This document shows, piece after piece, positions 2,654-59,619 of a DNA stretch of 64,000 nt (its first letter is position 1; the number at the start of each line of letters is the position of its first letter). The position numbers and the translations under genes were made by a program. Source of the stretch: Nitrosospira lacus (GTDB lineage Bacteria; Pseudomonadota; Gammaproteobacteria; Burkholderiales; Nitrosomonadaceae); contig NZ_CP021106.3 of NCBI RefSeq assembly GCF_000355765.4, forward strand, positions 1,087,137 to 1,151,136, read 5' to 3'. A model generated the notes under the pieces. It made no database searches and had not been told where the DNA came from. It worked only from the letters and a program-made list of their open reading frames with translations.

Positions 2654-2772
2654 AACCAAAATCTGATGGTTGCAGCGTACTCACCATGAAGGTGAAGGTC
2701 AAGCGACGCAAGAAGCCTTTGTAGATCATAGCGCTAAACTGGAGAATGAGCAGTTCAATGCCGGATTCGGTT
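2654..2772 (-). repeat. MITE-like intergenic repeat, copy 1 (lptD-surA interval)
   Basis: 119 bp element with imperfect terminal inverted repeats: AACCAAAATCTGATGGTTG at the left end and CAATGCCGGATTCGGTT at the right. Read on the minus strand its interior aligns with the other copies: a CTCATTCTCCAGTTTAGCG-type segment, then a TTGACCTTCACCTTCATGG segment shared almost exactly with the copy at 15175-15292. It fills most of the 192 bp between lptD and surA, so any readthrough transcript of the operon contains it. Confidence 0.7.
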
Positions 2773-8425: not shown

Positions 8426-9079
8426 ATGATCGGGTTGTGGAAATACCAGCATATTTTGAGCATCCTCCTATTCTGCGCTTCACCGGGCACGTGGGCGAAT
8501 ATGGGCGATAGTGATCTTATCACTGCTGCCGGGAACGGGAATGTTTCCCGGGTCAAGGCGCTGCTCGCGACCAAAGCCAATGTGAATGCCAAGACGGATA
8601 ATGGCACCACCGCATTGATAGCGGCATCACAGAATGGCTACGAAGAGATGGTGAAGGTGCTGATAGAAGCCAAAGCGGACATCAATGCGAAGACAAGCAA
8701 TGGCACCACCGCATTGATGCAGGCGTCGCAGAAAGGCCACAGGGAGGTCGTGCGCGAGCTGCTTGCCGCTAAAGCCGATGTGAATGCCAGGAGGGGCGAC
8801 GGTGCCACGGTATTGATGCAGGCTTCGCAGGAAGGACATTCTCAGATAGTACAAATGCTGCTCGCCGCCGGGGCCGATGTGAATGCCCGGCTGGATAATG
8901 GCGCAACCGCATTGATGCTGGCCTCGCAGATCGGTCACGCGGGCGTCGTACAGACGCTGCTCGCGGGCAAGGCCGATGTGAATGCCAAAGCGGGCAATGG
9001 CGCCACAGCGCTGATGCTGGCATCGAAGTATCGCCACCAGGGGGTGGAAAAACTCCTTAAGGAAGCGGGCGCCAAATAA
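8426..9079 (+). CDS. Exported ankyrin-repeat protein
   Basis: 217 aa. Residues 1-24 form a signal peptide (hydrophobic core ILSILLFCASPGTWA, cleavage near TWAN), so the protein is probably periplasmic. The rest is a run of six ankyrin repeats of about 33 residues, each with the consensus N-G-A/T-T-A-L-x2-A-S-Q-x-G-H and ending A-D-V-N-A. The repeats are unusually alike both in protein and DNA, which suggests recent expansion by unequal recombination. The protein ends within the last repeat and has no other domain. Ankyrin repeats bind proteins; the partner is unknown. The stop codon touches a degenerate copy of the dispersed intergenic repeat. Confidence 0.85.
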   Translation: MIGLWKYQHILSILLFCASPGTWANMGDSDLITAAGNGNVSRVKALLATKANVNAKTDNGTTALIAASQNGYEEMVKVLIEAKADINAKTSNGTTALMQASQKGHREVVRELLAAKADVNARRGDGATVLMQASQEGHSQIVQMLLAAGADVNARLDNGATALMLASQIGHAGVVQTLLAGKADVNAKAGNGATALMLASKYRHQGVEKLLKEAGAK

Positions 9080-9146
9080 TCCTGAATCCAGCGGTTTATC
9101 GTCTACCTTACAAGATCAGCATCTCGATCCACAAAGACCGTCGTGT
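9079..9146 (+). repeat. MITE-like intergenic repeat, copy 2 (degenerate, right end not found)
   Basis: Begins ATCCTGAATCCAGCGGTTTATCG directly at the ankyrin-gene stop and continues with GATCAGCATCTCGATCCACAAAGACC. This aligns with the AGATTAGTACCATGATTCACAAAGAC interior of the 59273 copy. The distal inverted repeat is not recognisable. Confidence 0.5.
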
Positions 9147-9410
9147 TACGTAATCTTCGCTCTCAGGGTTCCCAGATCATCGCATGAAGAATCCCGCGAA
9201 GCGGGATCGGGCAGCGCAGGAATGGCGTGATCGCCTTTCATGGCGTCCGTATGCCGTTGCACGGCGCACCCTTCCGCATCGCTGTATCTGCTTCCCTAAA
9301 AACCGCGCCCGGACTTGGAAGGATAACGCAAACAACGCTCGGGTGGCCCTGAAGAATCTCCCAATTTGCGGACAGCACATTTCATGGAAATGTTTAATCA
9401 GGAAATCCCT
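9080..9410. other. 331 bp interval between convergent ankyrin and P450 genes
   Basis: Contains repeat copy 2 at its left edge and a perfect 7 bp inverted repeat (ATCCCGC, GAA loop, GCGGGAT) at 9191-9207. The hairpin has no U-tract, so it is not a standard terminator. A 76-codon ORF at 9184-9414 starts at the hairpin, has no recognisable domain and runs into the P450 gene on the opposite strand; I do not call it. Confidence 0.45.
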
Positions 9411-15174: not shown

Positions 15175-15292
15175 AACCCGAATCCGGCAGTTGCCCATCC
15201 ATTCTTTGTTTAACGTCATGACTCATAATAAATTTCCGCCCCATTTGACCTTCACCTTTTTGGTGAGCTCGTTCAACTACCGGATTTAGGTT
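15175..15292 (+). repeat. MITE-like intergenic repeat, copy 3 (full length)
   Basis: The best-preserved copy, 118 bp. The left end is AACCCGAATCCGGCAGTTG. The right end TCAACTACCGGATTTAGGTT is its inverted complement with three mismatches. The interior has the family's GTCATGACTCATAATAAATT segment (cf. ACCATGATTCACAAAGA elsewhere) and TTGACCTTCACCTTTTTGG, nearly identical to copy 1. The right end overlaps the TTG start codon of the following gene. Confidence 0.75.
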
Positions 15293-16166
15293 GAGCGCTA
15301 CTCCAAATATATCGGATTTTAATTCAGCCTCGGTCCGCGGATGGCTGGCAAGCCCTTCGTCGCGCCTGAACGTGACGATATTGATTTCGGTGATTTTTCA
15401 CGCGATTGTTTTGTTCGGGATCACCCTCAAACTCCCGCATCTGGAAATCGGCAAGGCCGCTGTGCCACTGGAAGTCGTGCTGGTCCACGGTAAATCTGCA
15501 TCGAAATCGCGCAGTGCGGATATGCCGGCCAAAACTAGCCTGGATGGCGGAGGTAACAAGGCCAGTATGCCGCTTCCCTTGTCGCCGGAACACGTGGTTG
15601 CGCAAGCGGAGCAACTTGAACAGGAAACGGAACAACGGATGACTGCGGTGGATAGTGAAGACACTTATCAAATACAGCTTCCTTCTGATAAGTCCGAGCA
15701 AAACCGCGCCGGGATTAACGGTAGCGACCTGGTTCAGCGCAGCCTCGAGATCGCTCGCCTGGAAGCTCAAACCGCACGGGACTCTGCAGCTTATCAGCGC
15801 CCTCCAAAACGCAGATTTATTGGTGCTCGCACGCAGGAATACCGCTTTGCCCGCTATGTCGAAGATTGGCGCCTCAAAGTGGAGCGAATCGGCAACATGA
15901 ATTATCCGGAAGCGGCAAGGCGGGAAAAACTCTATGGAAACCTGCAACTCACCGTTGGTATCAGGTCTGACGGCAGTCTCGAGTCGCTTGAAATAAATCG
16001 CTCGTCGGGAAAGAAAGTTCTGGATGAAGCGGCAGTACGCATTGTCCATTTGGCGGGACAAAACGGATTTGCTCCCTTTCCGCCGGACATCAGTCGGGAT
16101 ACTGATGTCCTGCATATTACCCGCACTTGGGCGTTTACCCCTTCGGACGAGCTGACCAGCCAATAA
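15291..16166 (+). CDS. TonB-family energy-transducing protein
   Basis: 291 aa. One transmembrane helix (about residues 27-46, LNVTILISVIFHAIVLFGI) anchors the protein in the inner membrane. It is followed by a ~150-residue periplasmic spacer and a C-terminal TonB domain (about 200-285) with the typical NYPEAARREKLYGNLQLTV opening. TonB proteins couple the ExbB/ExbD proton motor to outer-membrane transporters; no exbBD lies nearby. The only start in the open frame is TTG at 15291; the upstream frame is closed by a TGA at 15264. That start lies in the inverted repeat of a MITE-like element, with only a weak ribosome-binding site. TonB family membership is clear; whether it serves transporters or acts like a DUF-type TonB paralogue is not. 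Confidence 0.83.
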   Translation: MSATPNISDFNSASVRGWLASPSSRLNVTILISVIFHAIVLFGITLKLPHLEIGKAAVPLEVVLVHGKSASKSRSADMPAKTSLDGGGNKASMPLPLSPEHVVAQAEQLEQETEQRMTAVDSEDTYQIQLPSDKSEQNRAGINGSDLVQRSLEIARLEAQTARDSAAYQRPPKRRFIGARTQEYRFARYVEDWRLKVERIGNMNYPEAARREKLYGNLQLTVGIRSDGSLESLEINRSSGKKVLDEAAVRIVHLAGQNGFAPFPPDISRDTDVLHITRTWAFTPSDELTSQ

Positions 16167-16255
16167 AGTCCGCAACCTCGCACCTTGCCCTGTACTCCAG
16201 GAACTGCACGCTTCATCCTGTCCAAGTGCCGGATTTAGATTAATTACCCTATCTC

Positions 16256-17841: not shown

Positions 17842-18263
17842 CGATTTTTCGGCACTTCATCCGGCAACAGGAGCCATACTTTGCGTTCATTCTCCTCCCT
17901 GTCATAATATTCGCCCTGCATTCCAGATCCCTCTGCAAACAGGCAATTCTGCCGCGCCAGTATCGAAGTGCGTCAGAAATACCGGCACATAACCGTTTCG
18001 GATAGGGCGTACAAATGAGGGCCCGACATCCGGCGGGAAGTGAAGGAGCGCATATTATTCATGAGTGACGAATAATTCTGAATCCGCCTGTGGCGACTTT
18101 GCAATACAGTGACACTCAGCGATGAAAGAAATCTTTTTGAATCATGACACTAAAACGAAATATGAGCAGTGAATCGGTGGATTTAGGATAATATGGCATA
18201 GCGGCAATTCAGCCAATTTCAAGTAGCGGCACTCTAGACGCAGTACACCAGGGCGATCGGGCG
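17842..18263. other. 422 bp interval between mtgA and mgtE
   Basis: No gene is recognised. The right half contains a full-length copy of the dispersed repeat (18075-18189). The remaining 70 bp must contain the mgtE promoter and leader. I see no recognisable Mg2+ riboswitch structure by eye, but a covariance search would be needed to exclude one. Confidence 0.45.
18075..18189 (-). repeat. MITE-like intergenic repeat, copy 4 (full length)
   Basis: 115 bp. The left end is ATTCTGAATCCGCCTGTGG and the right end is GGTGGATTTAGGAT, its imperfect inverted complement. On the minus strand it reads ATCCTAAATCCACCGATTCA, then TTAGTGTCATGATTCAAAA and GATTTCTTTCATCG, matching the 59273 copy (TTAGTACCATGATTCACAA). 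Confidence 0.72.
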
Positions 18264-31987: not shown

Positions 31988-33094
31988 ATGGATTTGAAAA
32001 CCGCTTACTATATCGGCATTATGTCGGGCACCAGCCTTGATGGAATTGATGCGGTGCTGGCTGATTTTAATTCGTCCCCCCCCTCTCTGCTGCACACCTT
32101 TTATCTACCCTACGATGGGGAGTTGCGCAGTCGATTGCTGGATCTGAACCGTTCGGGTAATGACGAGCTGCATCGCGCGGCCATGCTGGGTAATGAGCTT
32201 GCCCGCCGTTATGCGGAGGCCGTGACGGGTTTGCTGCATGGGTACGGCGTGAAACCTCAGGAGGTAATCGCCATCGGCTGCCACGGCCAGACTGTGCGCC
32301 ACTGCCCCGAATCCGGGAGGGGCTATACCATTCAGCTATGCAATCCCGCTTTGCTGGTCGAACTCACGGGCATTACCGTGGTGGCGGACTTCAGGAGTCG
32401 TGACATCGCGGCAGGCGGTCAGGGCGCTCCTCTGGTTCCGGCATTTCATCAAATCTTGTTCAAAGATTCACAAGTTCATCGCGTTATCACCAATATTGGG
32501 GGAATCTCCAATCTCACCAGCCTCATGCCCAATGGGGAGGTTGCCGGGTTCGATTGCGGTCCCGGTAATTTAATCATGGACGCATGGTGTCTGCGTCATA
32601 CCGGCAAGCCATATGATGAGAATGGCGCATGGGCCGATTCTGGCAAAATAATCCCGGAATTGCTTGAAAAGCTTCTGGGACTTCAGTTTTTTTCTCTTTC
32701 TCCCCCGAAAAGTACTGGCAGGGAGGTATTCAACTTGGCCTGGCTGGAGAGCTATCTGTCTGGAGATGAAAAGCCGGCGGATGTGCAAGCAACCTTGCTG
32801 CAATTGACGGTAACGGGAATTGCCCAGGCAGTGCTCACCTATTTTCCGGATGCGGCGGAAATCTACCTGTGCGGAGGCGGTGCGCGTAATGCGGCGCTTG
32901 TTGCGCAATTAAGAATGGCTCTATCCGGCAGGAAAGTGGAATTGACAGACAGGTTCGGGGTCGACGCCGATTGGCTGGAGGCATTTGCCTTTGCCTGGCT
33001 GGCGAGACAGGTCATTCTGGGAGTTCCCAGCAGTCTCCCTGCGGTAACCGGCGCTCGGGGCGCCCGCTTGCTCGGTGCGATCTATCCGGGTTAA
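31988..33094 (+). CDS. anmK: Anhydro-N-acetylmuramic acid kinase AnmK
   Basis: 368 aa. It converts 1,6-anhydroMurNAc plus ATP to MurNAc-6-phosphate in murein recycling. The opening YYIGIMSGTSLDGIDAV is the family signature; the FDCGPGNLIMD and CGGGARN motifs of the ASKHA fold follow. The upstream neighbour is a murein endopeptidase, and mpl elsewhere in the window completes a recycling theme. It converges on erpA with a repeat element between. Confidence 0.96.
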   Translation: MDLKTAYYIGIMSGTSLDGIDAVLADFNSSPPSLLHTFYLPYDGELRSRLLDLNRSGNDELHRAAMLGNELARRYAEAVTGLLHGYGVKPQEVIAIGCHGQTVRHCPESGRGYTIQLCNPALLVELTGITVVADFRSRDIAAGGQGAPLVPAFHQILFKDSQVHRVITNIGGISNLTSLMPNGEVAGFDCGPGNLIMDAWCLRHTGKPYDENGAWADSGKIIPELLEKLLGLQFFSLSPPKSTGREVFNLAWLESYLSGDEKPADVQATLLQLTVTGIAQAVLTYFPDAAEIYLCGGGARNAALVAQLRMALSGRKVELTDRFGVDADWLEAFAFAWLARQVILGVPSSLPAVTGARGARLLGAIYPG

Positions 33095-33211
33095 GCCTGA
33101 ATCCAGGAGCAGACCGCTTGTTTCATTAGGTTCGTACTGCTGTTGTCCATTTGGGTAAATCCGCTACAGGGAAAATTTAATCTCTTCCATCCAATTGGCG
33201 GATTCAGGCCG
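33095..33211 (+). repeat. MITE-like intergenic repeat, copy 5
   Basis: 117 bp between convergent anmK and erpA. The left end is AAGCCTGAATCC and the right end is GGATTCAGGCC, an 11-base near-perfect inverted repeat. The interior (GACCGCTTGTTTCATTAGG, GTCCATTTGGG) is more diverged than in copies 3, 4 and 7, and the orientation is tentative. Its position between two stops would let it act as a hairpin for both genes. Confidence 0.6.
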
Positions 33212-36144: not shown

Positions 36145-36551
36145 GGAATCTCCAGGTTTGAATGCGAAGAACAGGGTTTTCCATCAGGATTTTTCATAAA
36201 TTCGTGTTGCATATCAGGATTATCCTGCCCCAGCATTGTCGCTCGTACCCTCGGTTACACATGGCAATAAATGGCTGCCCTGAATCTTCAATTTTTAGAG
36301 ATGTCTTTATTTATTTGGTTCGATTTACCGGATATCTTGCGGGGAAAATGCAACCGGTTGTCGATTATCCTTACCCTAAATTCGCTGCGCAACGAACTCG
36401 CCATGACGGTGAAGCCTCGATGGGGCAAACTCTTTGCGTCCATGGCGCCGACCTGGGAAATAAGCGGCAACCGCCAGATTTGGGATTATAAGCAACAAGT
36501 AAAAAAGCCGCCAGAAACGGGCGGCTTTTCAGCATGGGACACGTAAAAAAC
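36145..36551. other. 407 bp interval between rpsI and argC
   Basis: Includes the rpsI terminator at its right edge and must carry the argC promoter. Short plus-strand ORFs run through the terminator and show no family resemblance; I do not call them. Confidence 0.45.
36501..36529 (-). terminator. Rho-independent terminator of rplM-rpsI
   Basis: On the minus strand: AAGCCGCC, an 8-base loop region CGTTTCTG and GGCGGCTT followed by TTTTTT. It lies 23 bp after the rpsI stop. The plus strand also ends in a T-run, so it could work in both directions. Confidence 0.9.
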
Positions 36552-42908: not shown

Positions 42909-43027
42909 AACCTAAATCCGGCGGTCGGCCGCTTCATTTTTCAGTTCATTCATCAATTGGCCGTCATGATCCGCATGGATTTTGCGCATCCCTGCGTCCT
43001 GCCCAATCACCGGATTGGATTTAGAAT
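42909..43027 (+). repeat. MITE-like intergenic repeat, copy 6
   Basis: 119 bp. The left end is AACCTAAATCCGGCGGTC. The interior has CTTCATTTTTCAGTTCATT and GTCATGATCCGCATGGATTTT. The right end is CAATCACCGGATTGGATTTAG, the inverted end with a small insertion. It lies between thrB and the DUF2782 gene and overlaps the last codons of the latter (stop at 43021), so the element may have replaced the original gene end. Confidence 0.72.
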
Positions 43028-44184: not shown

Positions 44185-46926
44185 ATGAAAACATTGTTGC
44201 TGGTTGATGGCTCATCTTACCTGTATCGCGCTTTCCATGCGCTGCCGGATTTGCGCAACCGCAATAACGAGCCAACCGGTGCGATTTATGGCGTGCTCAA
44301 CATGCTGCGCCGTTTGCACAAGGATTACCAGGCCCATTATAGCGCGTGCGTATTTGATGCAAAAGGCAAGACTTTTCGCGACGACCTCTATGCGGAATAT
44401 AAATCGCATCGCCCTCCAATGCCCCCCGATCTGGCGGCGCAGATTGCGCCCCTGCACGAGTGCATTATCGCCATGGGCTGGCCAATGCTGATCGTGGAAG
44501 GCGTGGAGGCGGATGATGTGATTGGTACGCTGGCTAAACAAGCCGTGCACGAAAACATGCGCTGCATCATTTCCACCGGCGACAAGGACATTGCGCAACT
44601 GGTGAATCCGCAAGTGACGCTGATCAATACCATGAGCAACGAAACGCTCGACGAAGCGGCAGTGCTTGCCAAATTTGGTGTGACACCAGCACGCATGCTC
44701 GATTATCTGGCATTGGTGGGTGACGCGGTGGATAACATTCCGGGCGTGGAAAAAGTGGGTCCCAAAACTGCGGTGAAATGGCTCACCCAATATGGCACAT
44801 TGGATAATCTCATCGCGCATGCCAATGAAATTGGCGGTGTAGTAGGTGAAAATTTGCGTGCGGCGCTCGCTTGGCTGAGTCGAGCGCGTGAATTACTGGC
44901 CATCAAGTGCGACGTCGCATTACCTGTCGATGTACACGATCTTGGGCTGCAACCGCAGCATACCGCAAAACTGGCCGAGTTGTATGAGCGGCTGGATTTT
45001 AGAACCTGGTTGCGGGAAATGCGGCAGGAGGCGGACTCAGCGAGTCCGCAAGTGATCGGCGATACGCCCTTGGCCGCCGGGTATCAGCCAGTGGATGCGA
45101 ATCGGCGATCTTCGGCTACGTCAGGGGACTATCAGATCATTTTGACCCAGTCCCAACTGGATGAATGGATCGCACGTATCTATGCCGCGCCACTGGTTTC
45201 GCTGGATACGGAAACCACCGGGCTGGATCCGATGCAGTCGCAACTCGTCGGAATCTCGTTTTCCATTGAGCCTCATCAGGCGGCTTATCTGCCGCTGACG
45301 CACCGGTATGCAGGCGCCCCACCGCAACTGCCGGTCGATCTCGTGATCAATAAACTCAAACCATGGCTGGAAGATGCGGGCAAACCCAAAGCGGGACAGA
45401 ATCTCAAGTATGACAAGCACATTTTTGCGAATCATGGCATTACTTTGAACGGAATTGTCCACGATACACTATTGCAGTCCTATGTATTGGAATCCCACCG
45501 TCCGCACGATATGGATAATCTTGCGTTGAGGCATCTTGGAGCCAAAACCATTAGCTATGATGAGGTCACCGGCAAGGGGGCCGGGCGTATAGGTTTTGAT
45601 CAGGTGGATATCGAACGCGCGATGCAATATGCGGCGGAAGATGCCGATATCACGCTGCAACTACATCAGCACATGTACCCCGAAATAATGAAGGACGAAA
45701 AGCTCGATTATATCTATCGCGTACTCGAAATGCCGGTACTGAACATCCTGTTTGAAATGGAGCGTAACGGCGTATTACTGGACTTGAAATTACTGGAAAT
45801 CCAAAGCCGCGAACTGGGTGAGAAAATGCTGTCGCTGGAAAGCCAGGCCCACGCTATTGCCGGGCAGCCATTTAATCTGAATTCACCCCGGCAAATTCAG
45901 GAGATACTGTTCAACCAGCTCAAGCTTCCCGTTATCAAGAAGACGCCAAGCGGGACACCGTCCACCGACGAAGACGTGCTGCAACAGCTCGCGCTGGATT
46001 ATCCCCTGGCAAAAGTCCTGCTCGAATACCGCGGGCTTGCCAAGCTCAAATCCACCTACACGGACAAGCTGCCGCGCATGGTGGATGCCGCCACCGGACG
46101 CGTGCACACCAATTATGCGCAGGCGGTAGCGGTGACCGGGCGGCTCGCGAGCAATGAGCCCAACCTGCAAAACATTCCGGTACGCACCGCCGAGGGACGC
46201 CGTATCCGCGAAGCATTTATCGCTGCACCGGGGCATCGCATTATCTCCGCGGATTATTCGCAGATCGAGCTGCGCATCATGGCGCACATATCGCAGGATG
46301 CGGGATTGCTCAAAGCGTTCGCCGCAGGCGAGGATATACATCGCGCGACCGCCGCGGAAGTGTTTGGTGTCGCGCTGGAAGCGGTGAACAATGAGCAGCG
46401 CCGCTATGCAAAAATCATCAACTTCGGGCTGATTTACGGCATGTCCGAATTCGGCCTCGCCTCGCAGCTCGGGGTTGAACGCTCAGCCGCACGTGCGTAC
46501 ATGGACCGGTACTTTGCCCGTTATCCGGGGGTTGCGAATTACATGCAACATACCAGGGAGACCGCCAGAAAAACCGGTTACGTCGAAACCGTATTCGGAC
46601 GCAGGCTGTGGCTGCCGGAAATCAATAGTTCCAACGGTAATCGCAGACAAGGAGCGGAACGTGCAGCAATCAATGCCCCCATGCAAGGTACTGCGGCCGA
46701 TATCATCAAGCTTGCCATGATCGCGACGCATGGCTGGCTGGCCAAAGCGGGCTTGCGGAGCAAGCTGATCATGCAAGTCCATGACGAGCTGGTACTGGAA
46801 GTGCCGGATGATGAAACCGGAACTGTAAAGGATGAACTGCCGCGGCTAATGGGTGGCGCGGCGAAACTCGACGTGCCGCTGCTGGTGGAAGTGGGGGTAG
46901 GCCCGAATTGGGAGCAGGCGCATTAG
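44185..46926 (+). CDS. polA: DNA polymerase I
   Basis: 913 aa. The 5'-3' exonuclease domain (about 1-290) keeps its acidic residues, including DGSSYLYRAFHAL and GVEADDVIGTLA. The 3'-5' proofreading exonuclease (about 310-500) looks active, with SLDTETTGLDP. The polymerase domain has motif A ADYSQIELRIMAH, motif B KIINFGLIYGMSEFGLA and motif C QVHDELVLE. It fills gaps and removes RNA primers. All three domains appear intact and the length is normal. Confidence 0.98.
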   Translation: MKTLLLVDGSSYLYRAFHALPDLRNRNNEPTGAIYGVLNMLRRLHKDYQAHYSACVFDAKGKTFRDDLYAEYKSHRPPMPPDLAAQIAPLHECIIAMGWPMLIVEGVEADDVIGTLAKQAVHENMRCIISTGDKDIAQLVNPQVTLINTMSNETLDEAAVLAKFGVTPARMLDYLALVGDAVDNIPGVEKVGPKTAVKWLTQYGTLDNLIAHANEIGGVVGENLRAALAWLSRARELLAIKCDVALPVDVHDLGLQPQHTAKLAELYERLDFRTWLREMRQEADSASPQVIGDTPLAAGYQPVDANRRSSATSGDYQIILTQSQLDEWIARIYAAPLVSLDTETTGLDPMQSQLVGISFSIEPHQAAYLPLTHRYAGAPPQLPVDLVINKLKPWLEDAGKPKAGQNLKYDKHIFANHGITLNGIVHDTLLQSYVLESHRPHDMDNLALRHLGAKTISYDEVTGKGAGRIGFDQVDIERAMQYAAEDADITLQLHQHMYPEIMKDEKLDYIYRVLEMPVLNILFEMERNGVLLDLKLLEIQSRELGEKMLSLESQAHAIAGQPFNLNSPRQIQEILFNQLKLPVIKKTPSGTPSTDEDVLQQLALDYPLAKVLLEYRGLAKLKSTYTDKLPRMVDAATGRVHTNYAQAVAVTGRLASNEPNLQNIPVRTAEGRRIREAFIAAPGHRIISADYSQIELRIMAHISQDAGLLKAFAAGEDIHRATAAEVFGVALEAVNNEQRRYAKIINFGLIYGMSEFGLASQLGVERSAARAYMDRYFARYPGVANYMQHTRETARKTGYVETVFGRRLWLPEINSSNGNRRQGAERAAINAPMQGTAADIIKLAMIATHGWLAKAGLRSKLIMQVHDELVLEVPDDETGTVKDELPRLMGGAAKLDVPLLVEVGVGPNWEQAH

Positions 46927-47005: not shown

Positions 47006-47089
47006 ATCCTGAATCCTGCATACCACAAAAAATCTTTGTGAATCATGGTGCTTAACTCGAAAATCAATGATCAACCACCGAATTTGGGA
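47006..47089 (-). repeat. MITE-like intergenic repeat, copy 7 (short form)
   Basis: 84 bp. On the minus strand it reads TCCCAAATTCGGTGGTTGAT, then TTAAGCACCATGATTCACAA, AGATTTTTTGTGG, and ends GCAGGATTCAGGAT. This matches the copy at 59273 base for base over its ACCATGATTCACAAAGA core. About 33 bp of the right arm present in long copies is missing. It ends 8 bp before the -35 element of the rpsP promoter. Confidence 0.72.
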
Positions 47090-55368: not shown

Positions 55369-55460
55369 ATCCTAAATCAGGTAGTTGATCGCACATTTCC
55401 CGATTTGGCGCTATGCTACATGAGCACTTTTGCACACTACTTGATCTTCACCTGGCAGGC
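55369..55460 (+). repeat. MITE-like intergenic repeat, copy 8 (right end degenerate)
   Basis: Starts ATCCTAAATCAGGTAGTTGA, aligned to the family left end. It continues with TTTGGCGCTATGCTACATGA, TTTGCAC and CTTGATCTTCACCTGGCAG, the last matching the TTGACCTTCACC segment of copies 1 and 3. No right inverted repeat is found. It lies between proC and mutM. Confidence 0.55.
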
Positions 55461-55511
55461 GCGGCGCAATGCGCTGTGCTTATTACATGCGTTTTCTGCC
55501 CCTTACAGGGG

Positions 55512-58464: not shown

Positions 58465-59222
58465 GGCAATGAAGAACTTGTGGAATTTTCCGTATCCATG
58501 GTGAACTGCATGAATATTTGTTCCAGGCTGATTCCTCTCTGTTTTAGTCCATTGACGGAATCACTGAATACCGTGCTGCCCTCATGCATGATCTGCACCC
58601 GGTCGCATACGCTTTCGACTTCCGGCAGGAGGTGGGTCGAGAGAATGACGCTGCGCTCCGTACCCAGTTCACGGATGAGGGTATGAATTTCCCGTATCTG
58701 GTTGGGATCGAGGCCGACTGTTGGTTCATCAAGAATGATCACATCTGGATCATGAATGATAGCTTGGGCAATTCCCACACGCTGCTGATAGCCTTTCGAT
58801 AGCGAACCAATCAGACGTTTGCCCGTATCATTCAGCCCGCAACGTTGTGTCACCCTGTCCAGCGCAAAAGGGATTCTTGCGTTGTCGACCCGGTGCAACC
58901 TGGCCGCGAGTTGCAGGTATTCGTTTACCGTTAACTCCCGATAGAGTGGGGGTATTTCCGGCAGATAACCGATACGCGCCTTGGCATCCCGTGGTTTGTC
59001 CAGCAGATCTATCCCGCAGATTTCAATGCTGCCGGCGCTCGGGGCGAGATTGCCGGTGAGCATGCGCATAATAGTGGTCTTACCCGCGCCGTTGGGGCCC
59101 AGAAATCCCAGGATTTCGCCATGCTTCAGCTCCAGATTGATTTCGCGCACCGCGGCGCGTCTACCGAAATAGCGGGATAAGCCACATGCGGAAATGGTTG
59201 ATAAGGCAATTTGTTCAGTCAT
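58461..59222 (-). CDS. ABC transporter ATP-binding protein (GldA-like)
   Basis: 253 aa. Walker A GPNGAGKTT (residues ~40-48), signature SLSKGYQQRVGIAQA, Walker B VIILDEPTVGLD and the His-loop STHLLPE are all present. It is the ATPase of the ABC-2/GldG system. First gene of the ATPase-permease-GldG-mutM run. Confidence 0.94.
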   Translation of the reverse strand: MTEQIALSTISACGLSRYFGRRAAVREINLELKHGEILGFLGPNGAGKTTIMRMLTGNLAPSAGSIEICGIDLLDKPRDAKARIGYLPEIPPLYRELTVNEYLQLAARLHRVDNARIPFALDRVTQRCGLNDTGKRLIGSLSKGYQQRVGIAQAIIHDPDVIILDEPTVGLDPNQIREIHTLIRELGTERSVILSTHLLPEVESVCDRVQIMHEGSTVFSDSVNGLKQRGISLEQIFMQFTMDTENSTSSSLP

Positions 59223-59619
59223 CTGAATCCAGTGGTTTGACTGGGTAACATGTGCGAAAGAGCATCACTATAAACCTAAATCCGTCGGTTGACCGTTCAT
59301 TTTCCAGATTAGTACCATGATTCACAAAGACTTTTTGCATCAATAATGATCCCAATGCGGGATCAGGAGCCGGATGCCCGATGCCGGTGGTGGTATCCCC
59401 GAGAATTGTCTTCCGCGTTTGTTTCATCCCGTAGGTAAAGCCATTTGGAACTTTGAATTTATAAGGCTGCACCGCAAACGCGTGCCCCCAGCACCCATTG
59501 CTTGGCAACGTCCACTTGTGAGAAGTGTAAAATATACCTAATATGTGGGCTGTGCTGAAGCTCGATTCCGCCCCATATTTCCCTATTAGCCTTATTTTCG
59601 GACCCTGTCTTAATTTTCC
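59223..59619. other. 397 bp interval between divergent ABC and TPR genes
   Basis: Contains one copy of the dispersed repeat (59273-59369) and possibly a second, weaker left end (CTGAATCCAGTGGTTTGAC) immediately before the ABC ATPase gene at 59223-59242. The remaining 250 bp carry the TPR gene promoter. No gene was recognised. Confidence 0.45.
59273..59369 (+). repeat. MITE-like intergenic repeat, copy 9 (short form)
   Basis: 97 bp. The left end is AACCTAAATCCGTCGGTTGA. The interior is CCGTTCATTTTCCAGATTAG, TACCATGATTCACAAAGACT and TTTTGCAT. The probable right end is CAATGCGGGATCAGGA, a diverged inverted end. This copy gives the clearest interior for the family and aligns with copies 4 and 7. 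Confidence 0.7.

Follow-up and report, generated by a model that had tools for sequence, protein, structure and literature searches.

Dispersed repeats of Nitrosospira lacus as probable IS1380-mobilized miniature elements and a hairpin-less branch of a longer structured element

Introduction

Miniature inverted-repeat transposable elements (MITEs) of bacteria are usually viewed as short-lived scraps of a single insertion sequence (IS). The review PMC10969869 describes bacterial MITEs as shorter than 500 bp, with inverted repeats and target duplications, an intergenic location and a stem-loop on folding, and the element described here shares all of these properties. It is unlike MITEs in general in keeping a near-fixed length at a median identity of 60%, in its spread across a bacterial order, in joining several end types to one body, and in its compensatory structure. 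The Correia elements of Neisseria, which according to the same review have a paired structure in the transcript and lie near genes, resemble it in both respects, but their commonest duplication is given as TA in PMC9330008, whereas that of the present element, compared by description, is a 5-bp WTNAW. A MITE in Polaromonas JS666 is also cited in PMC10969869. A Polaromonas plasmid carries a 234-bp element of the present family, and the JS666 MITE may be a family member, which would lower the novelty of the family. Mattes and colleagues are said to have described this MITE of Polaromonas sp. JS666 in 2008.

Members of the IS1380 family of insertion sequences (NF033539, PF13701), with transposases of about 510–545 aa, resemble the element in their terminal CCT...CAGTT(G/A) and in 5-bp duplications that are mostly WTNAW; they differ in being about 1.6–1.75 kb long, in encoding a transposase, and in lacking the hairpin and core of the element. 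Our literature searches found no paper on miniature inverted-repeat elements in Nitrosospira and no paper containing any of six end sequences searched as words, and passages on IS1380 and miniature inverted repeats do not describe the present element.

The repeats were noticed in a 64,000-nucleotide stretch of the Nitrosospira lacus genome (contig NZ_CP021106.3, positions 1,087,137 to 1,151,136), referred to here as the window; genomes and loci carry our own G and L numbers, G000 being N. lacus itself. We conclude, with a probability of roughly 90% on the evidence of sequence comparison, that the window repeats are non-autonomous MITEs moved in trans by a DDE transposase of the IS1380 family, and that they form a branch of about 116 bp lacking the hairpin of a longer parent.

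Results

Copies in the window

The family is present in the window well beyond chance, the end motif CCTRAATCCGGYRGTTG occurring 15 times at up to three mismatches where 0.93 are expected, a count reached in none of 100 shuffles. The initial annotation had aligned nine copies, and all nine were recovered (E≤0.003) by an nhmmer profile trained on 28 copies from outside the window, with window entries as well as loci L001 and L011 excluded. That list was nonetheless incomplete: the profile also found an overlooked tenth copy of 110 bp at 36375–36484 on the plus strand (E 2.9e-8; 34.9 bits with the model R1). The remaining places in the window scored E 0.06 or poorer, and the only match in the reversed window had an E of 3.9. 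The terminal inverted repeats noted in the annotation are real, but the element runs from CC to GG, and the outer AA/AT and TT/AT that had been included are bases of the target duplication.

The window copies are about 81–116 bp long and without coding capacity, and their 17-bp ends are often worn. The full 114-bp copy at 15177–15290 (minus strand; nhmmer E 1e-20; 83.4 bits with R1, in whose training set it is), the subject of the earlier annotation, is the only one with both ends at one mismatch or fewer, every other copy having at least one worn end; a blastn search with it returned 47 matches at E≤1, itself included, from its own 3.26-Mb genome. Another full copy, 116 bp long and hairpin-less, lies at 2656–2771 (plus strand; nhmmer E 9.5e-19; R1 82.7 bits, also in the training set). 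An exact 5-bp duplication within the window is found only at the 111-bp copy at 18077–18187 (plus strand; ATAAT/ATAAT; nhmmer E 7.4e-10; R1 34.7 bits), and the short 81-bp copy at 47008–47088, after a DNA polymerase I ORF (44185–46926), has a duplication scored by script as 4/5 (ATTAT/AGTAT; plus strand; nhmmer E 1.3e-10; R1 37.7 bits).

The other copies are all on the minus strand. Three have one clear end: 9081–9168 (nhmmer E 3.8e-4; R1 21.6 bits), 55371–55462 (E 3.9e-10; 33.1 bits) and 59275–59344 (E 9.1e-14; 46.2 bits), the last with a second end-like site beside it at 59222–59238. The five bases before the copy at 9081, ATAAT, contain the TAA stop of an ankyrin-repeat ORF (8426–9079; Pfam). 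The 110-bp copy at 42911–43020 has paired ends, one of them worn (E 4e-6; 25.8 bits), and a worn 113-bp copy at 33096–33208, which comes directly after the AnmK ORF 31988–33094, was found by nhmmer (E 0.003) and by the model R2 described below (20.9 bits), with no report from R1 at E≤1. A possible end fragment at 16167–16239 (minus strand), directly past the stop codon closing a TonB_C ORF, appears to comprise a left inverted repeat and some of the long form's left hairpin arm; it was read by eye from an end motif with two mismatches (16223–16239) and a weak R2 match (16058–16221, E 0.49).

Abundance in the genome and the family

Across the N. lacus genome there are 184 end motifs at two or fewer mismatches, against one for the reversed pattern, and hence at least 92 copies. 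The further copies that were predicted to turn up in a genome scan are therefore there, but the extrapolation from one copy per 7 kb in the window to hundreds genome-wide overstated their number, since the window is richer than average, with 10 such ends per 64 kb where the genome mean is about 3.6.

Copy numbers per genome are taken from end motifs only, R1 having scored no more than 29 and R2 no more than five candidates per genome. At one mismatch or fewer, at least one end motif is present in 44 of 125 genomes of the bacterial family. Numbers in the 23 genomes of the same genus vary from 0 (five genomes) to 181 per genome; six of nine genomes of a sister genus have 9–29, and those of a large genus (g3) have 0–2 with a single exception (reversed pattern, 0–1). 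This patchy spread over genomes fits a mobile element. The exception, G032, is the sole g3 genome with several (six) window-type end motifs, a possible case of transfer between genera.

Target duplications and an empty site

Ends were paired at loci fetched from N. lacus and its relative G099, yielding 57 pairs that include some false or nested ones, all of which were kept. Immediately outside CC...GG an exact 5-bp repeat is found in 19 of the 57 pairs, against a shuffled mean of 2.6, and a match of at least four bases out of five in 30, against 13.4; neither count was equalled in 2000 shuffles. The target-site duplication that the initial annotation had named as a check is thus present. The duplicated sequences (ATCAT, TTCAT, ATAAT, ATTAT, TTGAA, TTCAA, ATGAT and others) are mostly of the form WTNAW. 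Exact duplications also flank the hairpin-less copies L002 and L008, so that the hairpin seems dispensable for transposition as such.

One family member of 229 bp, G000:117184–117412, which lies outside the window, was examined for an empty site. Its flanks, whose genes we take from their translations to be nadK and recN, were joined and used as a query, and 20 of 22 congeneric genomes contain a one-piece match with small indels (76–90% identity). In G099, the nearest relative (90% identical), a single TTCAT stands where N. lacus has TTCAT, the element, and TTCAT. The two remaining genomes are G108, where a single flank matches at the beginning of a contig, and G115, with different DNA at this site. 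That DNA comprises about 700 bp (G115:C22:237073–237775) at the same nadK–recN junction that the element occupies in N. lacus.

Compensatory change between the two ends, anticipated in the initial annotation, did not appear: among 41 elements from N. lacus and G099, the ends agree just as often as expected at all but one of 17 positions, and at the exception, position 12, they agree in 28 of 41 elements where 20.2 are expected, in a comparison of raw counts. The lack of covariation within these two genomes fits binding sites for an enzyme and not a paired stem.

IS1380-family partners

A transposase with matching ends had also been sought as a corroborating feature, and none was found in the N. 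lacus genome, either as a PF13701 match above the cut-off or in searches with the L094 and L087 transposase proteins. Five PF13701-like matches below the cut-off (E 1.2e-5) belong to one IS with different ends, CACTGCTGTCCCA, and longer duplications, and were rejected as the partner. This IS, presumably of IS4 type, is present as five identical 1.27-kb copies (L061–L065, at 748389, 1085376, 1811732, 1910918 and 2232906 of G000:C1) with duplications of about 8–9 bp, pointing to a recent expansion in the genome of the window. Also set aside were classic IS1380 elements of the same family (L066–L070), whose ends differ, and transposase fragments in G097 and G108, beside which matching ends are absent.

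In related genera, IS elements whose transposase is 544–545 aa long terminate in CCTATTTTCCTCAGTTG and CCTAAATTCCTCTGTTA and are flanked by duplications of 5 bp, ATGAA and TTTAT among them. All six transposases scanned are nearest to IS1380 (NF033539), L077 at 264 bits and the other five at 106–156 bits against an NCBIfam cut-off of 180, and each of the three run against Pfam matched PF13701 above its cut-off. When GTDB genomes were scanned with alignment A1, built from five such transposases, 410 relatives emerged, of which 80 were kept; ends were sought in 53 of these by a script that chooses the IS boundaries maximizing ends and duplication, and 33 loci have believable ends together with exact 5-bp duplications, mostly WTNAW (exceptions include TTCAC and CTGAA). 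No believable end pair was found at ten of the 53 loci (L164, L187, L188, L196, L203, L204, L214, L217, L231 and L234).

The ends of one of these IS elements, L215 of Ideonella azotifigens DSM 21438, are CCTAAATCCGGCAGTTGCC and CCTAAATCCGGCAGTTACC, the letters of the window end motif, and TTGAA flanks this IS on either side. An IS partner with matching ends in the same genome as the element, not found in N. lacus, was found on a plasmid of Polaromonas sp. P1-6, where a 234-bp element beginning CCTAGAAACGGCAGTTG and flanked by a 4/5 duplication (TTCAT/TTAAT) lies about 360 bp from an IS of the IS1380 group encoding a 510-aa transposase. The right end of this IS, CCTAGAAACGGCAGTTAG, begins CCTAGAAACGGCAGTT, as does the neighbouring element, and the IS is flanked by TTAAA/TTAAA. 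At the level of the order, co-occurrence of transposase and element is not visible: among the 14 genomes that have the transposase (E≤1e-20) four carry the element (E≤1e-4), and among the 385 that lack it 98 do, again as raw counts. A search of 52 transposase loci for the element body gave nothing better than E 0.014, and simple deletion from the IS elements encountered therefore does not account for the element.

Short and gene-less, with inverted repeats of transposase type (CCT...GTTG), exact 5-bp duplications, one empty site and IS elements bearing the same ends, the repeats bear out the MITE reading of the initial annotation, and its REP/ERIC alternative is not needed for those in the window.

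A longer parent element

The window copies, at 116 bp and without the hairpin, branch off from an element that is usually 234–236 bp long. Forms of about 390, 236, 116 and 73 bp exist and resemble an internal-deletion series. The parent of about 234–236 bp consists of a 17-bp end, a hairpin of about 120 bp, a GTAGCG linker, a small TCACC/GGTGA stem, an AT-rich core and a second 17-bp end. Sixteen end pairs of G099 are exactly 236 bp, and one 236-bp copy, L121, folds into a single long hairpin (−120.4 kcal/mol, z −12.5). In G078, from another genus, there are two further types of 235/236 bp with the ends CCTRGATTCCTCAGTTG and CCTAAAAACCGYAGTTG, the same body plan and mostly exact duplications. 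A longer subfamily is seen in N. lacus, where six loci (L012, L014, L020, L027, L032 and L050) of 348–389 bp have an extra GC-rich insert in the hairpin loop, and exact duplications flank four of the six. The GTAG tag ahead of the small stem of the 236-bp element recalls RAYT/REP elements.

A covariance model, R2, was built from 36 long elements (alignment A4) collected through the end motif and through a model that ignores base pairing, with the candidates L110 and L255 and seven near-identical copies, from G078 or elsewhere, left out. Run on 399 genomes of the order, R2 finds the element at E≤1e-4 in 102 genomes and 51 of 158 genera, although some of the genomes with weaker E-values may hold chance hairpins and shorter matches (147–190 bp) also occur; at E<1e-20 there are 51 genomes in 17 family codes, as counted from the table. 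Of 30 R2 loci returned, one from N. lacus, 27 have plausible ends and 18 of those have exact duplications; a wrong position was searched for L287, and L307 and L308 were mis-framed. Two equal-scoring loci, G407:C37:11886–12003 and G407:C62:32134–32251, match the hairpin only (model positions 19–138) and possibly represent a second element with the same hairpin.

Two carriers can be named, both in the Burkholderiales: Caballeronia grimmiae, with the element on its IncP conjugative plasmid p5 (GTAAC/GCAAC), and Polaromonas sp. P1-6. A plasmid search with seven queries matched two records among 72,556, whereas searches of phages and of E. coli with one query each, and of IMG/VR with one exact pattern, gave no match.

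A conserved fold with a strand preference

The fold was studied in an alignment (A5) of 79 elements at 78 loci, drawn from 29 of the 30 R2 order-scan loci (L290 being excluded), 40 hand-picked stretches that are mostly full-length matches from the same scan, and nine reference loci. The median pairwise identity is 60%, and the lengths are 229–247 bp, with 75 of the 79 at 231–238 bp, in copies chosen as full-length. The 60 pairs of the model are 96.3% standard, compared with 33–41% in slid registers, and double changes occur in 50 of them, with 700 doubly changed cells against 185 in shuffles, although these pair counts lean towards structure because A5 was fitted to the model.

In an alignment made from sequence only, the 28 stem positions of the 79 elements contain 1706 Watson-Crick, 320 G-T, 18 A-C and 166 other combinations, where column shuffles give 422 G-T and 135 A-C; the A5 matches had nevertheless been found with a model that favours G-U pairs. 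This does not apply to the 36 elements of A4, in which 211 G-T and 12 A-C are seen against 265 and 59 expected. Tolerance of G-T and avoidance of A-C speak for a fold in one strand, and the strand preference suggests that the fold acts in one strand, perhaps as RNA. When hairpins are folded in both directions, 77 of 79 favour the structured strand, by a mean of 15.5 kcal/mol, but this effect is partly one of base make-up, since composition alone, in shuffled hairpins, leads 73 of 79 to favour the same strand (mean 5.3 kcal/mol). The unpaired GTAGC linker at the hairpin base is kept in 71 of 79 elements, with the small stem directly after it.

Seven loci compared with Rfam 15, with matches admitted up to E 1, produced nothing above the gathering score, the lone match being the plasmodial sRNA RUF6-5 at 32.8 bits against 70. 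A consensus promoter scan of three elements found 2, 0 and 1 sites, about the shuffled level and with nothing consistent among them. A function for the fold is what we infer from these patterns in the sequence.

Ends and body

At positions 7–11 the left and right ends carry the same letters in 58 of 79 elements, against 12.5 in shuffles, which indicates that both ends change together between subfamilies. The element body is common to at least six end types, and the main types are all, by eye, to be found among IS ends: AACCT in L206, AACGG in L192 and in the Polaromonas P1-6 IS, at the right end in both, AACCG in L224 and at the right end of L212, TCCGG in L215, TTCGG in L190 and TTCCT in L156. 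On a tree of bodies the end type changes 19 times (minimum 8; shuffled 33.7), a rough number, as the tree is weakly supported (39 of its 76 inner branches are open, and it has several long branches) and 21 rows with unequal ends were left uncounted. From these changes the body has probably switched partners repeatedly, and the many end types on one body make it seem older than any single IS partner.

Position relative to genes

Gene context was examined for 91 long-form elements with flanks, the longest ORFs being taken as genes in place of annotation. Of the ORFs, 83 point towards the element with their 3′ end, and in 15 of these the stop falls exactly in the middle of the duplication; a further eight end at element base 5 (CCTAG or CCTGA) and six at base 18 (GTTGA). 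As WTNAW includes TAA, TGA and ATG patterns, insertion at a gene border can restore a codon. The ORFs are not biased towards reading the structured strand (36 of those upstream have the same and 54 the opposite orientation; downstream, 40 and 47), which counts against a role in ordinary co-transcribed messages.

Discussion

Our preferred explanation is that a DDE transposase of the IS1380 family moved the window MITEs in trans and that its gene has since gone from the N. lacus genome, which would leave the copies stranded. Their bias towards gene borders could arise if insertions inside genes were lost while those at the borders survived, the duplication being able to keep start and stop codons whole. 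The kinship with IS1380 makes it most improbable that the window copies are instead a REP, ERIC or Correia-type repeat without any relation to that family: such repeats are likewise intergenic, palindromic and multi-copy, but the ends and duplications match those of IS1380-family elements, and the Rfam scan of seven loci yielded only the sub-threshold plasmodial sRNA. We also doubt that the family descends, as a classical deletion derivative, from a single IS1380 element formerly resident in this genome. Ends identical to those of IS elements and a size series of copies are what such an origin would leave, but the body is missing from all 52 transposase loci, and it is joined to at least six end types with 19 changes among them, albeit on a weakly supported tree.

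What the hairpin of the parent does is less sure than how the element moves; it would act in one strand, most likely as RNA. Long inverted repeats are corrected by template switching, and the hairpin could be merely a DNA palindrome, with template switching or gene conversion during replication holding its arms to the same sequence and no selection on a folded strand. The indifference to the orientation of neighbouring ORFs and the exact duplications of L002 and L008 agree with this, but a strand-blind process predicts G-T and A-C in proportion to composition, contrary to the counts in both A5 and A4, and the unpaired linker is conserved as well; we regard a palindrome of this kind as unlikely, though it is the strongest competitor to a one-strand fold acting as RNA. 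The structure might otherwise be single-stranded DNA recognized by a protein and helping the element to multiply, in the manner of REP hairpins tagged GTAG, which are recognized by RAYT (Y1) enzymes. GTAGC at the hairpin base with a small stem next to it, the tolerance of G-T pairs in single-stranded DNA too, and the lack of transcript bias would all suit such recognition, but exact 5-bp duplications and IS1380 ends indicate a DDE enzyme acting on double-stranded DNA, and we think it improbable, if a shade less so than the deletion derivative.

Returning to a one-strand fold that acts as RNA, the 234–236-bp element could be a transposable structured RNA: a long-lived parasite without genes, having a conserved one-strand fold of its own (hairpin, GTAGCG linker, second stem), whose body is kept while its ends are switched between several IS1380 specificities, outliving each transposase. 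In the window copies, one branch of this element, the hairpin would have been lost. We hold this broader proposal tentatively, at slightly less than even odds.

A body of near-fixed length here persists through an order, carried by chromosomes and by a conjugative plasmid, and compensatory changes over most of its stem together with a strand preference are unexpected for a mere palindrome. If the fold is RNA, the element would be a mobile non-coding RNA with changing partners. The family would account for many of the short repeats met at gene borders when these genomes are annotated.
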